Assembly: GCF_030463535.1 (NCBI RefSeq)
Contig: NC_132893.1
Location: 16,091,771 to 16,155,770 of the forward strand
Reading direction: 5' to 3'
Length of the DNA stretch: 64,000 bases
From: Salminus brasiliensis
Lineage: Eukaryota; Chordata; Actinopteri; Characiformes; Bryconidae
Below, piece by piece: positions 1,661 through 41,270 of this stretch. The position numbers and the translations under genes are program-made. Under the pieces are notes generated by a model, which worked only from the letters and a program-made list of their open reading frames with translations, was not told the origin of the DNA and did not search any database. Numbering within the stretch: position 1 is the stretch's first letter; every line of letters begins with the position of its first letter.

Positions 1661-41270
<39,610 letters not shown>

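Follow-up and report, generated by a model that had tools for sequence, protein, structure and literature searches.

The clathrin heavy chain gene CLTC is known to carry an alternative exon, exon 31, that inserts seven residues into the protein. According to a legend in PMC7617313 this insertion is present from human to frog, and the available text of that paper gives the event in eight species, from eleven reaching to zebrafish, with zebrafish not among the eight. The insertion is tied to clathrin plaques in PMC9234671, which, together with PMC10225744, traces the link of exon 31 with plaques to Moulay et al. 2020, a study also cited in PMC7617313 and PMC12064062; fibronectin experiments described in the portion of PMC10225744 at hand showed no exon 31 change. 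The literature covered gives no explanation of how the seven added residues tip the balance from curved coats to flat plaques, and PMC12064062 (2025) states that regulation of the muscle-specific Cltc microexon was not explored. Here we analysed a stretch of 64,000 nucleotides (nt) from the fish Salminus brasiliensis (NC_132893.1, positions 16,091,771 to 16,155,770, forward strand; C16:16091771-16155770), hereafter the window. Its CLTC gene contains a 21-nt open segment at 38285-38305 that is likely the fish counterpart of the vertebrate seven-codon alternative exon and would act as a spacer of one heptad in the tripod helix.

A 21-nt phase-0 exon candidate in fish CLTC

Sequence comparison identifies the window gene as CLTC, with an alignment to mammalian CLTC in PDB across the whole tail (7.3e-74) and 65 identical residues over 72 of the exon upstream of the segment. 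An earlier note, made from the letters of the window, had described a 21-nt segment encoding VDSVKKK with phase-0 borders, a strong acceptor and a usable donor. This observation is confirmed: the coordinates were exact, and acceptor and donor scored 10.9 and 7.3 with approximate splice-site matrices. The context reads TTTTTACATTTCCTTTTAG/GTTGATTCAGTTAAAAAGAAG/GTGAAG, where slashes mark borders and GTTGATTCAGTTAAAAAGAAG is the 21 bases at 38285-38305. The upstream exon ends with AGCAAG/GTAAGA at 36835 and the downstream exon starts with TTTAAAG/GTGGACAAG at 40867, both at phase-0 borders, leaving introns of 1449 nt upstream and 2561 nt downstream of the microexon. The features are as follows.

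36614..36835, + strand: upstream CLTC exon, end of the trimerisation region, phase-0 donor
38260..38264, + strand: branch-point-like CTAAC, its A some 21 nt ahead of the acceptor G (by eye, unscored)
38265..38284, + strand: polypyrimidine tract and acceptor, score 10.9
38285..38305, + strand: candidate cassette-type microexon, 21 nt, phase 0, VDSVKKK (paralogues: L006 and, on the reverse strand, L005)
38306..38311, + strand: donor gtgaag, identical across the three paralogues found, score 7.3
38312..38356, + strand: pyrimidine-rich tract behind the donor, 84% C+T, PTB-like
38385..38405, + strand: CTGCATGATGTTTTTTTTGTT, a block common to the other CLTC copy, containing the RBFOX-type TGCATG (38386-38391)
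40867..40942, + strand: next CLTC exon, end of the tripod helix
41134..41270, + strand: final coding exon, which holds the stop and the Hsc70 site QLMLT (borders by eye)

Compared with the gene's 24 exon cores, the acceptor outscores 23 and the donor 8; these ranks are rough, because at least two of the 24 cores are cut at the wrong 5' end. The exact 21-mer has one occurrence in the 1.066-Gb genome (103 contigs). The segment had also been assigned to the place of the vertebrate seven-codon CLTC exon, and here the published human primers agree. The primers that PMC10225744 gives for exon 31 encode PYFIQV (residue 1597) and ATETQP (1626) and flank the fish exon; human exon 31 therefore lies within 1603-1625, the same interval.

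Recurrence in paralogous heavy chain genes

A protein search of the same genome with the upstream exon as query gave six first-look candidates, which on scoring came down to three matching heavy chain loci: the window (100% identity), one on contig C11 (97%) and one on contig C6 (74%). The set found thus consists of two near-identical CLTC copies (window and C11) and one more distant, CLTCL1-like gene (C6). At all three loci the same intron holds a 21-nt phase-0 open exon with AG before it and gtgaag after it. The two further exons are:

L005 1151-1171, reverse complement: C11 CLTC microexon GTTGATGCAATTAAGGAAAAG, VDAIKEK, splice scores 10.3/7.3
L006:1071-1091 (C6:21772470-21772490): C6 CLTCL1-like microexon GTGGATGAATTAACAGGACAG, VDELTGQ, splice scores 14.4/8.0

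The C6 acceptor (14.4) is the strongest of the three. Scanning the gene strand of the two 10-kb paralogue loci for AG-GTNGAY-N15-GT returned only the microexons, one per locus; the pattern AG-N21-GTRAG, which gtgaag donors do not fit, gave two matches in C11 and one in C6, all outside the microexon's intron. When the exons were aligned together with their flanks, the scores for window/C11 and for C11/C6 each exceeded those of 300 out of 300 shuffles. Length (21 nt), frame, place, the gtgaag donor and the peptide pattern V-D-x-(V/I/L) are conserved in all three genes. The C6 gene as a whole gave tblastn matches to 23 of 24 exon cores (72-100% identity; the core set is without first exons), and the 24th was recognised by the pattern VDKLEEAESK. 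With its exon peptide VDELTGQ it may encode an alternative hub form of CHC22, the CLTCL1 clathrin.

A chance open segment with splice-like borders that is never used could resemble such an exon. In first-order shuffles of the window intron, a 21-nt open candidate of equal strength arose once in 4000, and the same test on the paralogous introns gave 3/4000 (C11) and 0/4000 (C6). Elsewhere in the window, no open candidate of 3-51 nt and a length divisible by three reached an acceptor of at least 10 with a donor of at least 7, either in the other 59.3 kb of the + strand or in the 64 kb of the - strand. With looser limits (acceptor and donor at least 6, same lengths), some candidate appeared in 78/300 shuffles of the window intron, 76/300 of C11 and 67/300 of C6; at these limits the microexon is the sole candidate in the real window and C11 introns and one of two in C6. 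Conviction therefore comes from the strength of the candidate and its recurrence in paralogues, not from the bare existence of a candidate. The ease with which weaker candidates arise (78/300) speaks for a pseudo-exon, as does the fact that the window exon is known from genomic sequence alone. Set against this are the single shuffle in 4000 that reached the observed strength and length, the same feature in three of three paralogous introns and the coincidence of the interval with the human exon 31 primers, and we regard an unused pseudo-exon as highly improbable.

Place in the tripod helix and possible mode of action

The microexon would be inserted after residue 1609 in mammalian chain numbering. 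In the available text of PMC7375819 the tripod comprises residues 1596-1626, its three trimerisation helices rest on distal legs that cross to form a triangle, and QLML reaches from the helix to two crossing legs. When human residues 1596-1626 are laid out in heptads from M1596, the insertion falls on a g/a border, and the microexon itself reads as a heptad from a to g, position a being V and position d being V, I or L. In three of three genes the a/d hydrophobic contrast is higher with the exon than without it (0.44 to 0.54, 0.44 to 0.54 and 0.48 to 0.58). The trimerisation exon was not recognised above cut-off in a Pfam scan. A helix rises 1.5 Angstrom per residue, which gives about 10 Angstrom for seven residues.

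We infer that the exon is used in fish tissue. Skipping would yield the standard clathrin heavy chain, and inclusion would add exactly one heptad (seven residues, about 10 Angstrom) in mid-helix to the tripod beneath each triskelion hub. As the a and d positions would remain hydrophobic, packing could continue in register. Everything beyond the insert, including the contact with the crossing distal legs and the Hsc70 site QLMLT, would be moved one heptad farther from the hub. Such a spacer may alter hub geometry, uncoating or both, and may thereby favour flat, long-lived lattices. The extent and contacts of the helix, and the link between the seven-residue insertion and plaques in mammals, are taken from the cited papers.

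The exon could instead act through charge. The earlier note had stressed the strongly basic block, and VDSVKKK has a net charge of +2 per chain and hence +6 per three-chain hub; its three lysines could create a positively charged surface close to the hub, to which acidic light chain, adaptor or lipid would bind. The paralogous exons, however, carry net charges of 0 (C11) and -2 (C6), so that neither the charge nor the three lysines are shared; what persists instead is the length and V-D-x-(V/I/L). We therefore hold a charge-based action to be unlikely, while it could still matter in the window copy alone. A further alternative is that the exon works through a displacement of the Hsc70 site QLMLT, with slower or faster uncoating as the result, and not by a direct change in lattice curvature. 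QLMLT is retained in all three fish heavy chain genes, in line with this; the idea overlaps with the spacer reading and may be part of it, and on its own we consider it possible though somewhat doubtful. For the one-heptad spacer, the fish paralogues narrow the plaque question: the shared property is one heptad in register, not basic charge.

Regulation

Control by both PTB and RBFOX had been proposed for the exon, with a UGCAUG about 80 nt downstream. The element is indeed there: TGCATG lies at 38386-38391, 81 nt after the window exon (+81), and at +69 in C11, with chance probabilities within 100 nt of 0.058 and 0.046, respectively. It belongs to a block of CTGCATGA and a T-tract, 69-81 nt downstream, that is almost identical in both CLTC copies and supports RBFOX control of the CLTC microexon. 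A conserved UGCAUG in the proximal downstream intron, used as a mark of RBFOX-dependent microexons, is found for both CLTC copies and not for the CLTCL1-like exon. RBFOX proteins bound at this site would help inclusion. In the consulted text of PMC12064062, RBFOX2 promotes another muscle microexon, that of SNAP23, via motifs in the downstream intron.

Support for PTB control is weaker than that for RBFOX, and this part of the proposal stands only partly. Pyrimidine tracts are strong on both flanks in the window, with 84% C+T at +7..+51 (99.9th percentile of the intron) and 78% at -49..-5 (99.3rd), and strong downstream in C6 (99.9th percentile). In C11 they are moderate, with only 67% C+T downstream (83rd percentile) and two PTB-like tetramers, so that the downstream tract is extreme in two of the three genes; PTB may bind there. 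PTBP1/2 depletion altered the Snap23 microexon very little, as given in the same portion of PMC12064062. Control of the CLTC exon by QKI was set aside, as neither CLTC copy has ACUAAY within 250 nt; the motif occurs at +73 of the CLTCL1-like exon only. An Rfam scan of the window gave no match at the gathering threshold. The fish paralogues also narrow the regulation question, with one UGCAUG element as a concrete candidate switch.

Several points weigh against a fish exon 31 with a spacer role and a shared switch. Inclusion and skipping in tissue are predictions from genomic sequence, and likeness to the mammalian exon was judged by length, frame and interval. The insert is absent from all six distinct PDB sequences matched (four by alignment, two by matched lengths). 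The heptad register was chosen by a simple hydrophobicity count, in which it came first of seven, not from a coiled-coil program or a structure, and the C6 peptide VDELTGQ includes a glycine, which is poor for a helix. On the regulatory side, the score of the T-rich downstream block was reached by 6/500 shuffles, the two CLTC copies show no conservation in their upstream flanks (153/500 shuffles reach the score), and there is no TGCATG near the C6 exon, which has only GCATG at +58. The alignment of the window and C6 exons with their flanks is at chance level (59/300 shuffles reach the score) and that of C11 and C6 has gaps within the exon; the main grounds for homology of the C6 exon are thus its place, length, frame, donor and V-D-x-L.

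Age of the exon

In the 72 residues of the upstream exon compared above, the C6 gene shares 53 identities with the window gene and 52 with mammalian CLTC. These counts, from one exon, suggest that the C6 gene, like CLTCL1, separated from CLTC before the fish and tetrapod lineages diverged. Downstream of it lies a mitochondrial-carrier exon (PF00153, 2.2e-7) whose best PDB matches are other carriers, and which may be SLC25A1, the neighbour of human CLTCL1. The published date of the CLTC/CLTCL1 duplication is 494-451 million years ago. Should the three exons be homologous, their origin would lie before this duplication, and the known muscle switch probably goes back to a time before the two vertebrate clathrin genes separated.

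Alternatively, a real exon may have had two independent origins, one in CLTC and one in CLTCL1, for instance if the heptad that opens the next exon (VDKL) was duplicated on two occasions. Each microexon does start like its next exon, with V-D-x-hydrophobic, and the first 12 bases match those of the gene's own next exon at 10 positions in C6 (L006:1071-1082 against L006:3172-3183), 5 in the window and 6 in C11; the lack of window/C6 similarity beyond chance points the same way. Separate origin nevertheless demands that two independent events hit on an identical length (21 nt), frame, intron and gtgaag donor, and the C11 and C6 exons with their flanks align above all 300 shuffles, which makes it decidedly improbable. 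Over the whole exon, 7 (window), 8 (C11) and 12 (C6) of 21 bases match, which is suggestive only of an exon born as a copy of the next exon's first heptad.

With common origin preferred, we tentatively propose, at somewhat less than even confidence, that CHC17 and CHC22 both inherited an optional one-heptad tripod spacer from a shared ancestor more than 450 million years ago, that it works by length and register and not by charge, that RBFOX turns it on in CLTC, and that CHC22 gets a long-hub form too. CHC22 handles GLUT4 in humans. If the CLTCL1-like version is true, the switch would extend to the GLUT4-handling clathrin and would date to before jawed vertebrates diversified.

Neighbouring features

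Other elements were seen around the heavy chain genes. Tail to tail with CLTC, downstream of it, lies a PTH2-family gene (PF01981, 9.3e-50), presumably PTRH2. An exon-like open stretch, which may belong to VMP1, scored above cut-off in none of Pfam, NCBIfam and PDB.

43163-43804, - strand: PTH2-family gene
48829-49026, + strand: Sleeping Beauty transposase helix-turn-helix-like remnant (PF25787, 1.8e-7, under the curated threshold)
53299-53436, + strand: exon-like open stretch
L006:4382-5532: Tc1-type transposase-like open pieces (by eye), in the CLTCL1-like gene, within the intron preceding its QLMLT exon

Comparison with known systems

No fish or CLTCL1 version of the exon was found in the literature searched, a weak negative since most subscription journals lie outside its coverage, and the same literature yielded no report on splicing of fish cltca/cltcb and no match to the peptide strings of the exon and its flanks or to five guessed mammalian spellings. 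A related case is the striated-muscle microexon of SNAP23, which, in the part of PMC12064062 available, is likewise in-frame, lies in a membrane-trafficking gene and has (U)GCAUG in the downstream intron. It differs in its eleven codons, its gene and its QKI motifs. The closest system is CLTC exon 31, known from human to frog: the same gene, seven in-frame codons in the C-terminal trimerisation domain, a cassette exon and the interval 1603-1625. The exon described here differs in occurring in a fish, where both CLTC copies and a CLTCL1-like gene have it. Its gene and its type of exon are already known; what is added here is the fish copies, the CLTCL1-like copy, the reading of the insert as an exact heptad and the shared UGCAUG block.
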